A stretch of DNA of 64,000 nt from Longicatena caecimuris (GTDB lineage Bacteria; Bacillota_I; Bacilli_A; Erysipelotrichales; Erysipelotrichaceae): positions 1 through 64,000 of the forward strand of contig NZ_SMBP01000013.1 in NCBI RefSeq assembly GCF_004341945.1, in the 5' to 3' direction. The notes under the pieces are model-generated. The model saw nothing but the letters and a program-made list of their open reading frames with translations, did not search any database and was not told the DNA's origin. Below are positions 2,118-10,696 of the stretch, one piece after another (position 1 is the first letter of the stretch; each line of letters opens with the position of its first letter). Both the position numbers and the translations under genes were made by a program.

Positions 2118-3029
2118 ATGGGAAAGGAAAATGTTATTTATATATCTTCACATGGAGTACAGCTAATCAGCGGCTCTAATGATAAAGAAGATATGATCAA
2201 AGTGGATGCTTTCCGCGAATATCCGTTAGCAGAAGGTGCTATGATTAATGGTGTTATCACGGATGATACCCCTATTTTGGAAATCTTAAAGGAAATGAGA
2301 AGTAATGGGATAACGACTGCCAGATTGTTGATAGACAGCGGACAGATTCTTACCAAAAATGTAGATGTACCTATTTTAAAAAAGAAAGAATTACTGCAAA
2401 TCACAAGAGATGAATTATCAGATATTGAAGGCAGTTATGAAGATTTGGTATATGATTACTGTGTGTTACGTCCCAAATATGAAGATGGCAGAAAAGGTGG
2501 AGAAATTTTATGTTGCGCGATTGAGCGAAAACTGTTAGCTTCTTATATAGAACTGTTTGAAAATGCAGAAATCACTTTAAAAGGGATTGATATTTCTGTA
2601 AACGCATTGCAAAAGTTAACAAATGAATTAGTTGATATGGCGGATAAAACCTATGTGATATCTGTTATTGATGGAAATAATGTATCCAGTTATTTATTTG
2701 AGAATAACCATTATACCTTTTCAAATCGTACACGTTTATTTTCTGATCGAGGAACTTATGAATTTATTATGGAAATGAATAGTAATATCTCACAATTAAT
2801 ACAATTCAGCAAATCGAAACGGAGTCAGTATACTATTGAAACGGCTTATTTTTGTGGCTTAGATGATGAAGAAGAACAAAAGGTATTTAAGAATATAAGG
2901 GAAAATCTTGATATTGAAGCAAAAGAATTTCCCAATTCAAAAATTATATACATAACAGATAAAAGTAGAGAAAAGGCATTTCAGTTACACGATTATGTAT
3001 TTACTGTCGGATGTCTGATTAGAAAGTGA
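2118..3029 (+). CDS. pilM: PilM-like pilus assembly protein (actin-like ATPase fold)
   Basis: In characterised systems PilM is a cytoplasmic actin/FtsA-fold protein that binds the PilN N-terminus and links the inner-membrane subcomplex to the rest of the machine. Similarity here is weak and is supported mainly by position (pilC, then this gene, then two single-TM coiled-coil proteins), a length of 303 aa, and the absence of TM segments. The open frame extends upstream to 2037 inside pilC, but the best start is ATG 2118 behind GGAGGAAG (2106-2113). The stop overlaps the next gene's ribosome binding site, implying coupling. Confidence 0.72.
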   Translation: MGKENVIYISSHGVQLISGSNDKEDMIKVDAFREYPLAEGAMINGVITDDTPILEILKEMRSNGITTARLLIDSGQILTKNVDVPILKKKELLQITRDELSDIEGSYEDLVYDYCVLRPKYEDGRKGGEILCCAIERKLLASYIELFENAEITLKGIDISVNALQKLTNELVDMADKTYVISVIDGNNVSSYLFENNHYTFSNRTRLFSDRGTYEFIMEMNSNISQLIQFSKSKRSQYTIETAYFCGLDDEEEQKVFKNIRENLDIEAKEFPNSKIIYITDKSREKAFQLHDYVFTVGCLIRK

Positions 3030-3041
3030 GGTGTACCTGAA

Positions 3042-3770
3042 ATGGCAAGTAAGCTTAGTAAGAAAGATATTGATTTGCTTTCTGCTTATAAGCAGAAAAA
3101 AGAAACACCTAAATATACAGGGGCTTTAAAGTATGCGGCATTACCATCAGGTATGCTGATCGTAGTTTTAGCTTTATTTATTTACTTTACGTTATCAAAT
3201 CATCAATTAGAAAATGAAACAGAAGATTTAAAGCAACAAACTACAAAAATACAAGAACAAATCGCGAATGATCCTAACCTAGAACGCTATAATTCCTTAC
3301 AAACAGTAAAAAGAGATATTGCTGCTTATAAAAAATTTAAAAAAGATATTCAATCCTATCCGGAACTTAGTCAGGATACTTTTGATAAAATTTTATTGGC
3401 AAGTGATGTAGATATTACTGTTACTAGCTTTAATTATACAAGAGAATCGCAAATTGTTACCCTGCAAATCGAAGGCACGAATGTAAACTCCACGGAACAA
3501 TTTGTGAGAAGGTTAAAAAATACCGATTTATTTGCGATGGTTAATTATTCTGGATATGTACAGAATGAAAAAATACTTGCAAACAATGATACTGTAAGTA
3601 AAAAGCAAGACGCTACAGATAATAAACAGACGAATAAGAATGTAAGTGATGCTCAGGCATTGATGGAACTTTTAGAAAATTTGAATAAGACACAACAACA
3701 AGAAACAATTAAACAACAACCAGAAACACAGAAAGTTTATACTGCGACTATTCTGTGCACATTGAAGTAG
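3042..3770 (+). CDS. PilN-like pilus assembly protein
   Basis: A 242 aa bitopic protein. It has a basic cytoplasmic N-terminus (about 1-30), one TM helix (about 31-49), a coiled-coil stretch (about 50-90, QLENETEDLKQQTTKIQEQI) and a periplasmic-type globular part ending in a Gln/Asn-rich tail (about 185-235). This is the architecture of PilN, which pairs with PilO and binds PilM through its N-terminus. GAGGTG lies 8 nt before the ATG, overlapping the pilM stop. Identification rests on architecture and position, since the sequence is divergent. The polar Q/N/K-rich tail is unusual. Confidence 0.62.
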   Translation: MASKLSKKDIDLLSAYKQKKETPKYTGALKYAALPSGMLIVVLALFIYFTLSNHQLENETEDLKQQTTKIQEQIANDPNLERYNSLQTVKRDIAAYKKFKKDIQSYPELSQDTFDKILLASDVDITVTSFNYTRESQIVTLQIEGTNVNSTEQFVRRLKNTDLFAMVNYSGYVQNEKILANNDTVSKKQDATDNKQTNKNVSDAQALMELLENLNKTQQQETIKQQPETQKVYTATILCTLK

Positions 3771-3780
3771 GTGATGAAAC

Positions 3781-4407
3781 ATGAAACAGACATTAACAAA
3801 ACGTGAAAAAGTATTGTTGTATATATTATTATGTATCATCATCGTTGTAGGTGGATTCTTTTATTTAATTATGCCAGCGATGGAAAAACATACGGTTTTG
3901 CAAGCAAAAAAAGATACTGCAGAAATGGAATTGATTAGTACAAAAGCATCTATTCCACGATATGATGATCTTGATAAAGAAATAAAAGAGGCTAGCAAAG
4001 AGTTAAAAGCGATAAAGGCAAAATTTTATGACAATCTGAAAAAAGAAGATGTTGATAAAATAATCACGAAATTAGCTATGGATCATTATTTAGAACCAAC
4101 AAGCTTGAGTATTACAGATGTTAGTGAAGAAGAAATTCTTAATTATAAGGAAAGTTTAAAAGCCATTGAGAAAAAAGATGAAAATAAAAATGAGGACGGT
4201 ACAAAAGAAAAAAAGAAAAACATCCTCAAAGTGTATAACATTTCATTAAGCGTAGATGGAACTGTCTTAAATTTGCAGAATATGATAAATGATGCGAATA
4301 AAATGAAATCTTTAAAAGTGGCAAGCGTGAATTACAATAGTGTCATTTCAAAAGATGAAAAATCAAATAGCATGATGGTAACTTTTAAATTATTTATGCT
4401 GTCATAA
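3781..4407 (+). CDS. PilO-like pilus assembly protein
   Basis: A 208 aa protein with an N-terminal TM helix (about 11-32), then a coiled coil (about 40-85) and a small C-terminal domain. That is the PilO plan: a membrane-anchored partner of PilN that aligns the pilus platform. A charged Lys/Glu/Asn low-complexity insert (about 125-145) interrupts the globular region. It follows the PilN-like gene after 10 bp and has its own AGGTGAT ribosome binding site. Assigned from architecture and order rather than strong motifs. Confidence 0.65.
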   Translation: MKQTLTKREKVLLYILLCIIIVVGGFFYLIMPAMEKHTVLQAKKDTAEMELISTKASIPRYDDLDKEIKEASKELKAIKAKFYDNLKKEDVDKIITKLAMDHYLEPTSLSITDVSEEEILNYKESLKAIEKKDENKNEDGTKEKKKNILKVYNISLSVDGTVLNLQNMINDANKMKSLKVASVNYNSVISKDEKSNSMMVTFKLFMLS

Positions 4408-4423: not shown

Positions 4424-5434
4424 ATGAAAGACAATAAAAAAGGCTCAGCTTTATTATGGGCAATTGTTGTCGTTATGGTTCTTGAGATTGTTATTGCAGC
4501 CTCAATGACGATTGCATATTCTTACTATAATCGCTCAGTTGAAAAGAATATAGAAAGGCAGGCCTATCTTTCTGCTAAGAGTGTTGTGACAAATGTTACA
4601 GAAAATATTCTGAATAAAAATTCAGATTATATAAAGTTAATTCCAGATGGTACAAATAGTGTGACTACGACGATCAATGACGTGGTGAATGGTAAACATA
4701 CATTCCCAGAAGCATTAGGTAAATTAAAATTATTGACATTGAGTGTTTCTACTAAAACGGTAGATGATGTTGAATATGTCTTTTTAACGATTAGTGGAAC
4801 TGTAACTTATGCTAGTAAGACATGTACCATAAGTGCGGATTTAAAAAGACTTGTAACTGAATCAAATAAAAATTGGACATTGATTAAATATTATGAAGGC
4901 AGTAAAGAAGTTCAATTACCATATAATATTCAAACAGGTAAGGATACATATGATTCTATTGATACAATTTTCACTTATTTTAAGAATGGTGATAAAGCGG
5001 CAATGCAAGAAGAGTATAAGAAACATGGTATAAGCGTAACAGATGGATTAACATTTAATAACGATAAATTACGAATTTATATTTATCAAGTGCTTATGAA
5101 TGGCTCTTCACCAAAGTTGAATATGGATGAGTTTAACTTGCCAAAATCATTAGCTGGTTCGCAATTATATGCTCATGTAATGTTTGGTGTAGTAGATGGC
5201 GAGCCTGTCTGTTTCATCTATGCAACGGCAACGGAAAGTGGTGCTGTTTCTGATTGGAAACCAATTTTAGTTTTTGATCCAATTACGCAACACTGGTATT
5301 TTAGAGTAAATCAATGGGGGAATAATGATTATCTTAGCATGGCACAATTGAATAGTGGGACTCCCGAAAATAGAAGAATTATATATGATAATTTAGTAAG
5401 TAGCTTTGTAGAAGAAAATATAGCAGACAAATAG
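4424..5434 (+). CDS. PilX/GspK-like pseudopilin
   Basis: A 336 aa protein that starts with a short basic, Gly-containing leader (MKDNKKGSALLWAIV) and a hydrophobic helix of about 20 residues, followed by a long soluble domain. The leader matches the loose PilX N-terminal pattern (G-SALL-x-hydrophobic) and lacks the Glu at position 5 of true major pilins, which is typical of GspK/PilX tip proteins. The extracellular part (35-336) is not recognised. A strong AGGAGGTG ribosome binding site precedes the ATG. It stands first in a run of three (pseudo)pilin genes, consistent with a minor pilin that primes assembly. Confidence 0.65.
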   Translation: MKDNKKGSALLWAIVVVMVLEIVIAASMTIAYSYYNRSVEKNIERQAYLSAKSVVTNVTENILNKNSDYIKLIPDGTNSVTTTINDVVNGKHTFPEALGKLKLLTLSVSTKTVDDVEYVFLTISGTVTYASKTCTISADLKRLVTESNKNWTLIKYYEGSKEVQLPYNIQTGKDTYDSIDTIFTYFKNGDKAAMQEEYKKHGISVTDGLTFNNDKLRIYIYQVLMNGSSPKLNMDEFNLPKSLAGSQLYAHVMFGVVDGEPVCFIYATATESGAVSDWKPILVFDPITQHWYFRVNQWGNNDYLSMAQLNSGTPENRRIIYDNLVSSFVEENIADK

Positions 5435-5460: not shown

Positions 5461-6429
5461 ATGAACAATAAAGGTGTTACATTAATTGAAATGATTGTCG
5501 CTATCTTGATTCTGTCTATTTCCTCTATAACGATTGCGGCAGGGTTCAATGGTGTTATTCAACGAATGGGCAAAGCTGCTAAAGTTAAAACAGCTAGCAA
5601 TGAGATGTTTTCCTTTATCGAAGGCAATCAAGAAGTTAAAGATAAAGTAAAGGTGAATAAAAAAGATCAAGATGCCTCTTATATATTGCATGCTGATAAT
5701 GGTGTTGATGATATAGAAGTACAAGCTACCTATAATGAGTATACAGGTACAAACGGTGCAGATATCGTTTTAAAAGCAATCACTAAAATTAAACAGAGCA
5801 CCACTCCGTTAAAGGATTTTGATGTATATAAAGATAGTGTAAATATAGGAAATGATCTATATGCTACATTAAATGATAGTGAAACAAAGAGTTGTGGATT
5901 AAATCAAAGTACTTGTAAAAGAGATGGCTATAATGATCATGTTTTTAAAAATTTAAAAGATACTTATCAAATTCAACCATTTCCAAATGAACTATTGCCT
6001 TCTGAATATAAAAGCCAATCATTTTATATAAATGCGTTTTATGCTTGGGAAAATAAGACGATATCAACAAATTGTAGTAATGAAAAGTTGATATATTTAT
6101 CGACAACTAATAAATATTATGAATATTCTCCTTATGAATTAAATGTCGATAATATTTCAATTATTTATAATTATTTAGATAATAAATGGTATTGTAAGCC
6201 TTCCAATATTACAGTTGCGATTGTTTATGATGATAAGATGTTTAGTGGCGCTTATTATCATGACACTTATATATCTGTAAATGGGGCAACAGAACAAAGG
6301 TATGATGATTTTCAGGATTTTATACATAAAGAAGTGAAGAAACAAAATTCAGGTTGGTATGTCTTAGATCCTGATGAGAACTATGATGGTGAAAATATTG
6401 ATGATTGTTGGATTTCAGTAAATTCATGA
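5461..6429 (+). CDS. prepilin-type minor pilin
   Basis: The leader is short and class III-like: MNNKG, then cleavage before VTLIE with the conserved Glu at +5, then a hydrophobic helix to about residue 28. The product should therefore be processed by the prepilin peptidase at the start of the operon. The 290-residue ectodomain is Asn/Tyr/Asp-rich and contains several Cys residues (for example around 140-147), possibly disulfides; I do not recognise a named domain. Its size (322 aa) exceeds that of typical major pilins, so a minor or tip role is more likely. AAGGAGG precedes the ATG. Confidence 0.8.
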   Translation: MNNKGVTLIEMIVAILILSISSITIAAGFNGVIQRMGKAAKVKTASNEMFSFIEGNQEVKDKVKVNKKDQDASYILHADNGVDDIEVQATYNEYTGTNGADIVLKAITKIKQSTTPLKDFDVYKDSVNIGNDLYATLNDSETKSCGLNQSTCKRDGYNDHVFKNLKDTYQIQPFPNELLPSEYKSQSFYINAFYAWENKTISTNCSNEKLIYLSTTNKYYEYSPYELNVDNISIIYNYLDNKWYCKPSNITVAIVYDDKMFSGAYYHDTYISVNGATEQRYDDFQDFIHKEVKKQNSGWYVLDPDENYDGENIDDCWISVNS

Positions 6430-6453: not shown

Positions 6454-7875
6454 ATGAAGTCAAAAAAACTTAATAATAAAGGCTTTACTTTAATGGAAAT
6501 CATTGTGACTTTGCTTATTTCTTCTTTAGTTATGATGATTGCTGGTTCTTTAATTTTGAACTCTCTAGGGTATTTTAATAAAGCTGCCACAACAGATGCG
6601 GATAAACAATCTTTAGATCTATTGGCGGATTTCGTAAGAGATCAGCTGTTATATGCAAGTGATGTAAAGGTTTTAAAAAGTAATGAAGAAAGACCTGAGG
6701 GAAATGATTGGAAATGGCTTTATGTCAAAGATGGTAGATTAATGCTCGGTCATGTTGACGCAACAGATAGTGAAGCATATAATGATGATTTTTATAATAG
6801 ACGAATATTAGAAATAAGTGCTAAGGGTTTTAATGAAAATCGACTTGATTTGAAATTCATTTATTATAAGAATAACGATAGCGAGAAAAAAGAAGTATAT
6901 AAAACTTCAACAACATTAGAACTTTTGAATATGGAACATAATAAAAATGCAAATCCTCTACAGGCGGAAACAAAAAATTTGACAGACCATATTATTTATT
7001 ACCGCAATGGTGAATTTGAAAATAAAGAATCTAGTGGCGGTGGTGAAGAAGAACCGGATGATACAGATTATGATGGAACTGTTGGAGGGGAAATCGCTTG
7101 TAAGAATGAATTAAATACCGCAACTCAGTGGGTAGCAAGGGGAACTTATAAAAAAGGAACTTTTGTTGAATTTAAAGGTACTTGGTATAGGGCAATAGTA
7201 GATGTCGAAAATGATGATTCTGATCCACATACGAATGATAAAGGGCAATGGAAAGCTATTATGACAGGCTGGCAAGTTACAAGCTCTTATGAAAAAGGCG
7301 ATGTTGTTGAATTTCCAATAAATACGAAGTTTTATTATAGAAAAATTATTGATTATAATCCTGCTCACAGAGGTCAAATTTATAATCCAGACCATCGAGA
7401 TGTATGGGAACCTATCAAAAAGGAAGATATACAGCCATTAAAATGTAAAATTATTGAAGATACTCCTACAGATAACAGCAGTAAAACGGTAGCAAGTGAA
7501 TATGAACGTTGCCCAAGTAATGTTTTGGAATGGGATAGTGGAAATAAACTATATCCAGGAGAATATGTAAAATATAATGGACAGTTATATCGCTGTATTA
7601 GTAATGAAGAAATCAACTGGGGACATGCTCATCAATTACCACCAGGTACAATAAATAGTCAGAAATATTGGAAAAAGATCAGCGAGGATTTTGATGAATA
7701 CAGTACGTATTTTAAAGGAGATATAGTTAAAGATACAGATGGAAAATATTATCAATTACTTACAGAAAATACGACAACAACACATCATCCTAGTCTTGTT
7801 CCTGCAGTGTGGAAATTAATTGATATTGATGATGTTTCAATTACCACTCCATCATGTAGAACTTCATGGTTATAA
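6454..7875 (+). CDS. prepilin with four CBM5/12-like repeats (candidate adhesive tip pilin)
   Basis: The N-terminus KLNNKGFTLMEIIVTLL is a textbook prepilin leader and helix (cleavage after Gly10, Glu at +5). After a pilin-like domain (about 40-190) and a Gly/Glu/Asp-rich linker (about 190-215) come four repeats at about 222-269, 272-320, 354-408 and 410-456. Each has the pattern Y-x-K/P-G-(D/T/E)-x-V...(W/Y)-Y-R/Q...P...W-K/E-x-I. This aromatic-rich pattern resembles the chitin-binding type 3 (CBM5/12) module, which binds polysaccharide through exposed Trp/Tyr. I infer a surface-displayed, carbohydrate-binding minor pilin. Ligand specificity cannot be read from sequence. The AAGGAG ribosome binding site is 8-9 nt upstream. 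Confidence 0.82.
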   Translation: MKSKKLNNKGFTLMEIIVTLLISSLVMMIAGSLILNSLGYFNKAATTDADKQSLDLLADFVRDQLLYASDVKVLKSNEERPEGNDWKWLYVKDGRLMLGHVDATDSEAYNDDFYNRRILEISAKGFNENRLDLKFIYYKNNDSEKKEVYKTSTTLELLNMEHNKNANPLQAETKNLTDHIIYYRNGEFENKESSGGGEEEPDDTDYDGTVGGEIACKNELNTATQWVARGTYKKGTFVEFKGTWYRAIVDVENDDSDPHTNDKGQWKAIMTGWQVTSSYEKGDVVEFPINTKFYYRKIIDYNPAHRGQIYNPDHRDVWEPIKKEDIQPLKCKIIEDTPTDNSSKTVASEYERCPSNVLEWDSGNKLYPGEYVKYNGQLYRCISNEEINWGHAHQLPPGTINSQKYWKKISEDFDEYSTYFKGDIVKDTDGKYYQLLTENTTTTHHPSLVPAVWKLIDIDDVSITTPSCRTSWL

Positions 7876-7955: not shown

Positions 7956-9629
7956 ATGAAAAATATACCAATAGGTGAAGTGTTAAAAGAATATGGTTAT
8001 ATCTCTGAAGAACAACTTCAAACAGCACTTGCCGAGCAGAAGAAAGATCGATCAAAACGTTTAGGTCAGCATTTGATTGATTTAGGCTTTATCAGCGAAA
8101 AACAGATGTTAAAAGCATTGAGTGATAAGTTAAATGAACCATTGGTTGATATGAACAATGTAGAAATCGAAGTCGATGCCGTAGCAAAGATTCCAAAGAC
8201 TTTAGCATTAAAGTATGATCTGATTGCGATTTCTGAGAATAATGGACGCTTAACGGTGGTTACCAGTGATCCATTGAATTTCTATGGTATTGAAGATGTA
8301 CGATTAGTTACAGGTATGAATCTTGCTATATGCTTAAGTGAAAAGAAAGAAATTCTACGAGCGATTGATTATTATTATGCGGAAATCAAGGCACGTGAAG
8401 CTGCCAGTGTGGCAAATGAAAATGTTGTTTCTTTTGAATTTGATGAAAGTGAATTATTTAATTCTGAAGAAGATGATACACCGGTTGTTAAACTGTTTAG
8501 CTCTTTGCTGACAAGAGGGTATAATGCAAATGCAAGTGATATTCATATTGAACCATTTGAAGATAAAACCATGGTACGTATGCGTATTGATGGAATGATC
8601 ATTGATTATGTTCAGCTGGCAAAGAATCTACATCAATCTCTTATTGTGCGTATCAAGATCATGGCAAATATGGATATTGCTGAAAAACGTGTTCCTCAGG
8701 ATGGTCATTTTGTTACGACCTTAGAAGGTACGAAGATGAACCTTCGTGTATCTGTTATTCCTACAGTGTATGGAGAAAAGGCCGTTTTACGTTTTTTAAA
8801 TAGCAATACGCCAATTCTGAATGATACTCAATATGGTATGAATTTAGAAAATTATCAAAAGATGCGCAAGATGATGGAAATGCCGCATGGTATCATATAC
8901 TTAACCGGGCCTACCGGAAGCGGGAAAACAACGACGTTATATATGATTTTGGAAACTTTGGCAAAACGTCAGGTAAATATTTCAACGATCGAAGATCCTG
9001 TGGAGAAAAACATTGAACGTGTCAATCAGATGCAGATTAATAATGCGGCAGGCTTGACCTTTGAAAAGGGATTGCGTGCATTATTGCGACAGGATCCCGA
9101 TATTATCATGGTTGGTGAAACACGTGATGGAGAAACCGCTTCTATATCTGTCAGAGCAGCAATCACCGGACACTTGGTATTAAGCTCTTTACATACCAAT
9201 GATGCAATTAGTACGATTGTTCGTTTGCAGGATATGGGGGTAGAGCCGTATATGGTAGCCAATTCTTTAATTGGTAGTGTTTCACAGCGTTTGGTTAGAA
9301 CAATCTGTCCACATTGTAAAGAAAAGATACGAACAACGGCGCTTGAACGTGAAGAACTTGGTGAAGATGTCGAATATATGTATCGTGGAGCAGGATGTCA
9401 TCAATGCAACCAGACAGGGTATAAAGGCAGAACCGCAGTGCATGAAATTATTTTGATTGATAAAGAAATGCGACGTATGATATCCAGTCATAAAGATATT
9501 GATGATATTTATGCTTATGTGAAAAAAAGTCAAAATTTAAGAACGCTGCGTGAAGAAACAATACAGCTTGTGAAAGATGGTTTAACAACGATTGATGAAT
9601 TACGTAAAATCAGTGTATACTCTGATTAG
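7956..9629 (+). CDS. pilB: type IV pilus extension ATPase PilB (GspE family)
   Basis: A hexameric cytoplasmic motor that drives pilus polymerisation. The order is an N-terminal MshEN/T2SSE_N domain (about 1-150), a linker, the N2 domain with SDIHIEP (about 194-200), Walker A GPTGSGKT (318-325), an Asp box and Walker B in the DPDIIMVGE region, a His box (SSLHTND), and a C-terminal zinc motif CPHC...CHQC typical of GspE/PilB. The length is 557 aa, as usual. It follows the CBM-like prepilin after an 80 bp gap and has an AAGGAGGA ribosome binding site. PilT follows 8 bp after its stop. Confidence 0.96.
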   Translation: MKNIPIGEVLKEYGYISEEQLQTALAEQKKDRSKRLGQHLIDLGFISEKQMLKALSDKLNEPLVDMNNVEIEVDAVAKIPKTLALKYDLIAISENNGRLTVVTSDPLNFYGIEDVRLVTGMNLAICLSEKKEILRAIDYYYAEIKAREAASVANENVVSFEFDESELFNSEEDDTPVVKLFSSLLTRGYNANASDIHIEPFEDKTMVRMRIDGMIIDYVQLAKNLHQSLIVRIKIMANMDIAEKRVPQDGHFVTTLEGTKMNLRVSVIPTVYGEKAVLRFLNSNTPILNDTQYGMNLENYQKMRKMMEMPHGIIYLTGPTGSGKTTTLYMILETLAKRQVNISTIEDPVEKNIERVNQMQINNAAGLTFEKGLRALLRQDPDIIMVGETRDGETASISVRAAITGHLVLSSLHTNDAISTIVRLQDMGVEPYMVANSLIGSVSQRLVRTICPHCKEKIRTTALEREELGEDVEYMYRGAGCHQCNQTGYKGRTAVHEIILIDKEMRRMISSHKDIDDIYAYVKKSQNLRTLREETIQLVKDGLTTIDELRKISVYSD

Positions 9630-9637
9630 GAGGCTTT

Positions 9638-10696
9638 ATGAATCAATTACTTGAAGAAGCTTTGCAATATGCGCGTGAGAATGGATGCAGTGATTTACAT
9701 TTGAATGTAGATGGTCCGGCAATGATTCGTAAAAATGGAAAGCTGATTGAATTTCCTAAACAGTTTGATAATGCACAAACAACAGAAATGATCTTATCCA
9801 TGTTGAATGATTTGCAAATGGAACAGTTGAAACAGGGAAAAGATATTGACTTTACGTATGTTGATCAAATGCATGAACGTCAACGTGTGAATGTATATCG
9901 ACAACAAGATAAGTTAGCAGCGGCTATTCGTATTATTGATAATCGTATTCGTTCCTTAGAGGAATTGATGCTGCCGGATGTTCTTAAAAACTTAGCAATG
10001 GAACCACGTGGTTTGGTACTTGTGACAGGTCCTACCGGAAGTGGGAAATCTACCACATTGGCAGCTATCATGCAGTATATCAATGAGCGTAGAGATTGTC
10101 ATATCTTAACGATTGAGGATCCAGTAGAGTATTTATATGAACGCTCGAAAGCTTTGATTCATCAACGTGAAATCGGATGTGATGTTGATTCCTTTGATAC
10201 GGCATTACGCAGTGCAATGCGTGAAGATCCGGATGTTATTTTAGTTGGAGAAATGCGTGATTATGAAACGATAGCAGCAGTAGTTACTTTGGCGGAAACT
10301 GGACATTTAGTATTTTCCACCTTACATACGATTGGTGCAGCTAAAACAATTGATCGGATCATTGATGTGTTTCCTCCTCATAAACAGGAACAGATCCGTA
10401 TGCAAATATCAGGAATCTTACGTGCGGTAATCACACAGCAATTACTTCCAACACTAGATGGAAAAGGCAGAGTAGCTGCTTTGGAAATCATGGTTGGAAA
10501 TGATGCGATTAGCAGTATGATTCGTGATAATAAGGTACATCAGATCAATTCGCAGATTCAAACAGGGGCAAAAGATGGCATGCAGACATTGAATTTTGCG
10601 TTAGCTAAGCTTGTGCGTACACAGAAAATTGGGTTGGATATTGCGGAGAAATATAGTGATGATGCAAAAGAATTACGTCAGTATTTAGGCATGTGA
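9638..10696 (+). CDS. pilT: type IV pilus retraction ATPase PilT
   Basis: PilT depolymerises pili, powering twitching and retraction. The protein is 352 aa, lacks the large N1 domain and zinc motif of PilB, and has Walker A GPTGSGKST (131-139), Walker B-like DPDVILVGEMRD and the His box STLHT. A PilT-type IIDVFPPHKQEQIR segment follows. The start ATG lies 8 bp after pilB, behind AGGAGG. Its presence argues that these are dynamic pili rather than a static competence pseudopilus. It is the last gene of the operon, and a T-run follows its stop at about 10709-10715. Confidence 0.95.
   Translation: MNQLLEEALQYARENGCSDLHLNVDGPAMIRKNGKLIEFPKQFDNAQTTEMILSMLNDLQMEQLKQGKDIDFTYVDQMHERQRVNVYRQQDKLAAAIRIIDNRIRSLEELMLPDVLKNLAMEPRGLVLVTGPTGSGKSTTLAAIMQYINERRDCHILTIEDPVEYLYERSKALIHQREIGCDVDSFDTALRSAMREDPDVILVGEMRDYETIAAVVTLAETGHLVFSTLHTIGAAKTIDRIIDVFPPHKQEQIRMQISGILRAVITQQLLPTLDGKGRVAALEIMVGNDAISSMIRDNKVHQINSQIQTGAKDGMQTLNFALAKLVRTQKIGLDIAEKYSDDAKELRQYLGM

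Follow-up and report, generated by a model that had tools for sequence, protein, structure and literature searches.

A J-like minor pilin carrying four CBM5/12-type modules is a candidate tip adhesin of a Gram-positive type IV pilus

More than 1,200 modular pilins with 264 architectures have been surveyed across monoderms and diderms, and carbohydrate-binding modules (CBMs) are among the commonest modules that they carry (PMC8179133). Among the closest described systems are two modular pilins of S. sanguinis, PilB, which carries a vWA module, and PilC, which carries a lectin module; both have been modelled at the tip of the type IV pilus (T4P) with an I-like subunit, and the K subunit of the HIJK set, which lacks Glu5, caps the fibre (PMC8179133; PMC9934059). 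Lectin-bearing modular pilins have been described in Gram-positives before, and the original prediction for the DNA described here, which held that CBM pilins are not standard in Gram-positive T4P, overstated the case in view of the S. sanguinis PilC lectin (PMC9934059) and the modular-pilin survey (PMC8179133). The survey's main text makes no mention of CBM or chitin (PMC8179133). In a partial literature search, we found no paper that joins PF02839 or CBM5/12 with a pilin, and Dataset S1 of the survey may list this architecture (PMC8179133).

In the window (the whole 64,000-nucleotide stretch of DNA that was analysed), we found a T4P operon with the gene order PilD, PilC, PilM, PilN-like, PilO-like, K-like, I-like, CBM pilin, PilB, PilT. 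Three of these are minor-pilin genes (K-, I- and J-like), the CBM pilin coming third, and the genes around it are:

122-892, + strand: prepilin peptidase PilD (PF06750 and PF01478)
898-2100, + strand: platform protein PilC, GspF family (PF00482, 4.9e-54)
2118-3029, + strand: PilM (PF11104, 6.3e-12)
3042-3770, + strand: PilN-like protein, GspL_C (PF12693, 2.7e-8)
3781-4407, + strand: PilO/GspM-like protein (PF04612, 8e-4, below cut-off; operon position)
4424-5434, + strand: K-like minor pilin without Glu5 (GSALLW), with a weak PilJ_C-like C-terminal domain (PF18223, 2.4e-5, 25.1 bits, cut-off 26.7)
5461-6429, + strand: I-like minor prepilin, 322 aa (N_methyl; ComGE 1.7e-5 and PilV 0.017, both under cut-offs)
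7956-9629, + strand: extension ATPase PilB with an MshEN (c-di-GMP-binding type) domain (PF00437, 1.1e-126; PF05157, 7e-16; NF053729 above cut-off)
9638-10696, + strand: retraction ATPase PilT (TIGR01420, 431 bits, above cut-off)

We call the CBM pilin J-like on the basis of its operon position and of matches to J-type models that lie far below their cut-offs (ComGF, 0.0012; PRK10557, 0.0024). The MshEN domain on PilB suggests that pilus extension may respond to c-di-GMP. The window begins at a contig end, and a 150-aa major-pilin-like gene (L022:108-560) lies at one end of contig C30 and faces outwards; from the gene order in relatives, this gene may be the missing neighbour upstream of PilD. 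The host genome also has a second, Com-like locus on contig C1. Promoter-like sites showed no excess over shuffles (71 as compared to 65 ± 8).

The CBM pilin gene encodes a 473-aa protein with these parts:

6454-7875, + strand: J-like modular minor prepilin with four CBM5/12 modules (ORF; Pfam N_methyl and CBM_5_12; homologs of identical layout)
6454-6573, + strand: leader peptide, cleavage site G10/F11, E15 (Glu5 of the mature protein) and hydrophobic helix (TIGR02532; conserved residues)
6574-7068, + strand: pilin head, about residues 41-205 (matches entire bare J-like pilins of relatives)
7126-7260, + strand: CBM5/12 module R1, residues 225-269 (homolog profile, 21.0 bits; model)
7270-7410, + strand: CBM5/12 module R2, residues 273-319, the most conserved module (homolog profile, 16.6 bits; Y310-N-P312, Tyr-x-Pro)
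7411-7527, + strand: linker between the module pairs, residues 320-358 (~40 aa), which holds Cys331 (alignment; Cys survey)
7528-7686, + strand: putative CBM5/12 module R3, residues 359-411 (homolog profile, 16.1 bits; best Pfam stretch 359-383)
7684-7824, + strand: putative CBM5/12 module R4, residues 411-457 (homolog profile, 19.4 bits)

The protein begins with the class III prepilin N-terminus MKSKKLNNKG/FTLME, which both Pfam N_methyl (4.9e-6) and TIGR02532 (1.4e-5) match above cut-off, and it has every feature of a type IV prepilin: a short leader, a Gly before the cleavage site, Glu5 and a hydrophobic helix. G10, T12, L13 and E15 are invariant in an alignment of eight homologs.

When we compared the 473-aa protein with Pfam CBM_5_12 (PF02839), the whole protein passed the cut-off of 26.2 bits (43.8 bits, E = 2.5e-11, three stretches), whereas single modules scored weaker (best 22.5 bits). 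A profile built from homolog modules, without the window sequence, found the four domains listed above with a total of 62.2 bits. In a control with 1000 shuffles of residues 201-473, some match was seen in 815, but the best total was 9.0 bits as compared to 62.2 bits for the real sequence; the four repeats are therefore real, and a chance origin is ruled out. The original prediction had proposed both the class III prepilin N-terminus and four repeats at residues 222-456 (window 7117-7822) with patterns like those of chitin-binding type 3 modules, and all of this was confirmed: the homolog profile spans residues 225-457 with the same repeat count, and the profile match assigns the repeats to the CBM5/12 family by sequence. 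The repeats are not evenly spaced; they form two tandem pairs joined by the linker, and the eight aligned homologs keep this 2+2 layout. Cys216 (seven residues on from where the TVxxx motif begins) and Cys331 (after R2) occur together in 4 of 13 proteins and are both missing from the other 9, and this co-occurrence suggests a disulfide that would close the R1R2 pair.

To model the first pair, we ran AF2 on residues 215-326 with a four-row alignment of the window and Faecalibacillus intestinalis pairs. The model has a pLDDT of 77 and a pTM of 0.70; R1 reaches 80-90, whereas one loop of R2 is weak. The best Foldseek matches to it are Vibrio chitin deacetylases with C-terminal tandem modules (7.6e-6), followed by Agrobacterium phage tail fibres and a baseplate. 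In VIA-align, the R1 model matches the C-terminal region of MmChi60, which is a CBM5 (PMC8449059), with Z 7.0 and an rmsd of 1.7 Å over 44 residues, and matches the ChiA1 CBM12 (1ED7) with Z 4.6. Since such Z values are frequently obtained, the fold assignment draws on Z and the sequence match together, and we hold with moderate confidence for this pair that R1 has a CBM5/12 fold, R2 being less well modelled. A full-length AF2 model from two rows (pLDDT 39) is too poor to give the arrangement of the parts. Of the four small beta domains that were predicted, the R1R2 pair is supported by its predicted fold, R1 matching CBM5 and CBM12 structures, while R3 and R4 are putative CBM5/12 modules identified from their sequence. 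Structure comparison also matches CBM5/12-like folds to phage tail fibres, baseplates and contractile-injection parts, so the fold alone is no proof of glycan binding.

The operon gene order is the same in F. intestinalis (G100) and four more genomes (G117, G116, G111 and G099). In all five, and also in G149, a CBM-type pilin is encoded between the I-like gene and PilB; G099 has an extra small prepilin gene in between. Pfam CBM_5_12 matches 6 of the 8 aligned homologs (E up to 1). Across the order, a CBM-pilin profile matches 24 of 316 genomes at 1e-8, some of them over the pilin part only, as compared to PilT-family matches in 114 of 316, so a recognisable copy of the CBM pilin is missing from the majority of genomes in the order that have PilT. 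Related operons encode J-like pilins of 165-181 aa that are bare; next to PilB, G024 encodes one of 165 aa and G078 one of 180 aa. When the eight-homolog alignment was compared with the 180-aa bare pilin by hhalign, the match covered residues 7-165, and a BLASTP match to the 165-aa bare pilin covered residues 7-126. The bare counterparts align to the pilin part only and are without the modules, which fits a modular pilin and indicates that the CBM modules are a graft. In a tree of PilB built from a small, hand-chosen sample of 14 operons, all nine CBM-carrying operons fall on one side of a branch with support of 96/97 and span two families; this is compatible with a single origin of the CBM-carrying operons and does not prove it. 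The CBM-pilin protein and the R1R2 alignment had no match in viral contigs, and tblastn gave no match in plasmids and phages.

Other genomes contain related arrangements. In G072, a small separate minor-pilin cluster includes a 487-aa prepilin with a vWA domain (L064:7288-8751, 4e-9). In G006, a CBM pilin gene (L025:8812-11291) is without its 5' part and a Tn916-type integrase (Integrase_DNA, 4.3e-32) flanks the truncation, which suggests that the gene was interrupted by an integrative element. G327 encodes a 546-aa non-pilin made of many CBM5/12 repeats (L058:225-1865, 2.7e-28), one of which has a canonical-looking AKYYTQG, and G093 encodes an I-like prepilin of about 277 aa with a weak CBM5/12-like stretch (L048:2580-3413, E 0.036, below cut-off). 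The PilJ_C-like domain, which is on the K-like subunit in the window (under cut-off, as listed), is on the I-like subunit in G117 (L024:9348-10280, 26.7 bits, at cut-off), and its presence on different subunits hints at module exchange among tip subunits.

Together, these observations point, with a probability of roughly 0.6, to a J-type (GspJ/PilW/ComGF) modular minor pilin that serves as a tip-displayed, multivalent glycan adhesin coupled to retraction. By analogy with S. sanguinis, the J-like pilin would belong to the tip complex with its modules pointing outwards. The pilin part (about residues 11-205) would join the I- and K-like subunits encoded upstream in a complex that starts and caps the T4P, and the two tandem CBM5/12 pairs would project from the tip and grip a glycan through many weak contacts. 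PilB, with its MshEN domain, would extend the fibre, and retraction by PilT would draw the cell towards the surface that the tip has bound.

Crystalline chitin is unlikely to be the ligand. In CBM5, chitin is bound by an adjacent Tyr-Trp or Trp-Trp pair (Y282-W283, the exposed pair of CjCBM5), and two other aromatics form the core (PMC8449059). By sequence alignment, this pair is absent from all four modules: R1 has Val-Asp, R2 has Ile-Asp (position read by hand from the second Tyr), R3 has Ser-Asn and R4 has Thr-Glu. In a sequence table of the homologs, their modules also lack the pair, and the Trp-Trp in R1 of homolog L006 occupies a core position (GYWW). GH18, GH20 and AA10 were not detected in the host genome, while control genomes were positive, which counts against chitin as food and not against chitin as an anchor; for GH19, the control genomes themselves gave no match. 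The missing pair and the missing enzymes weaken the chitin reading, and a true chitin-binding tip, directed at fungal walls or dietary chitin, is quite improbable even with CBM5/12 family membership and structural matches to chitinases and chitin deacetylases on its side. The R2 loop also speaks for it: the ligand-binding Trp of ChiA1 CBM12 sits in a Trp-Glu-Pro loop, and the poorly modelled R2 loop has a similar Tyr-Asn-Pro. Tyr-x-Pro is present in R2 of 7 of the 8 aligned homologs, with P312 invariant; among the four modules, R2 is the only one that keeps it, and R4 has His-His-Pro. The predicted lectin-like tip that would bind chitin, mucin-type glycans or fibre thus retains its CBM5/12 modules on a T4P minor pilin whose operon position is that expected of a tip subunit, and loses chitin as a favoured ligand; mucin-type or other host glycans, dietary (fibre) glycans and microbial cell-wall glycans are the candidates. 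The vWA prepilin of G072 carries a module of the type that S. sanguinis PilB uses to bind host proteins (PMC8179133); however, what has been described for the CBM5/12 family is carbohydrate binding, and nothing in the analysis points to a protein, and we consider it highly improbable that the array binds a host or bacterial partner protein instead of a glycan.

The loss of the aromatic pair from every module also suits a structural role, in which the modules have no ligand of their own and form a stalk or spacer to keep the remaining tip parts at a distance from the fibre; the K- and I-like subunits bear extra domains as well. The occurrence of related modules in the phage and contractile-injection structures named above is consistent with this, and rigidity would be expected from a disulfide clamp, if there is one, and from the conserved 2+2 layout. 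In contrast, the retention of the R2 Tyr-x-Pro, the invariance of W244 (R1) and Y294/Y295 (R2) in the eight-homolog alignment, and an R2 conservation no lower than that of the pilin head argue against modules without a ligand, and we regard a spacer as unlikely. A glycan adhesin at the tip is the reading that we prefer, and a bolder form of it has a low probability: that the CBM5/12 fold has been re-purposed as a four-module tip lectin of new specificity (for a mucin-type or bacterial cell-wall glycan, not chitin), and that T4P tip subunits in the order swap modules (none, CBM5/12, vWA or PilJ_C-like) to change grip.

These results provide a candidate pilus-tip adhesin and a short ligand list for gut-type Gram-positives, including F. 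intestinalis, and the CBM-tip operons, beside operons with bare or vWA pilins, offer a test of how tip modules set the adhesion target of T4P.

As compared to known systems, the window protein is close to S. sanguinis PilC (PMC9934059), with which it shares a Gram-positive T4P, a large minor pilin whose pilin part is followed by modules of carbohydrate-binding type, partner minor pilins encoded alongside and a predicted position at the tip; however, PilC carries Ig-like and concanavalin A-like lectin modules and binds sialylated glycans and GAGs, whereas the window protein has four CBM5/12 modules in two pairs. S. sanguinis PilB (PMC8179133) likewise has a module grafted on a pilin and is a tip adhesin, as the window protein may be, but its module is a vWA with a MIDAS that binds proteins, and a vWA prepilin is found in the relative G072, not in the window. 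With the CBM5/CBM12 family (PF02839; the CBM12 of ChiA1, the CBM5 of MmChi60 and CjLPMO10A), the modules share sequence family, predicted fold and a terminal core Trp, and R2 has a Tyr-x-Pro where ChiA1 has Trp-Glu-Pro; they differ in that the CBM5 pair is missing from all four and no enzyme is attached. The Vibrio and Shewanella chitin oligosaccharide deacetylases (4nyu, 3wx7; PMC6415152) have a tandem CBM12 pair that is the best Foldseek match to R1R2, but in an enzyme context and with a poorly matched module orientation (rmsd 7-8 Å over the pair). Relative to the papers reached by our partial literature search, what is new is a four-module CBM5/12 array on a pilin that is conserved in its lineage and has lost the chitin-gripping residues.
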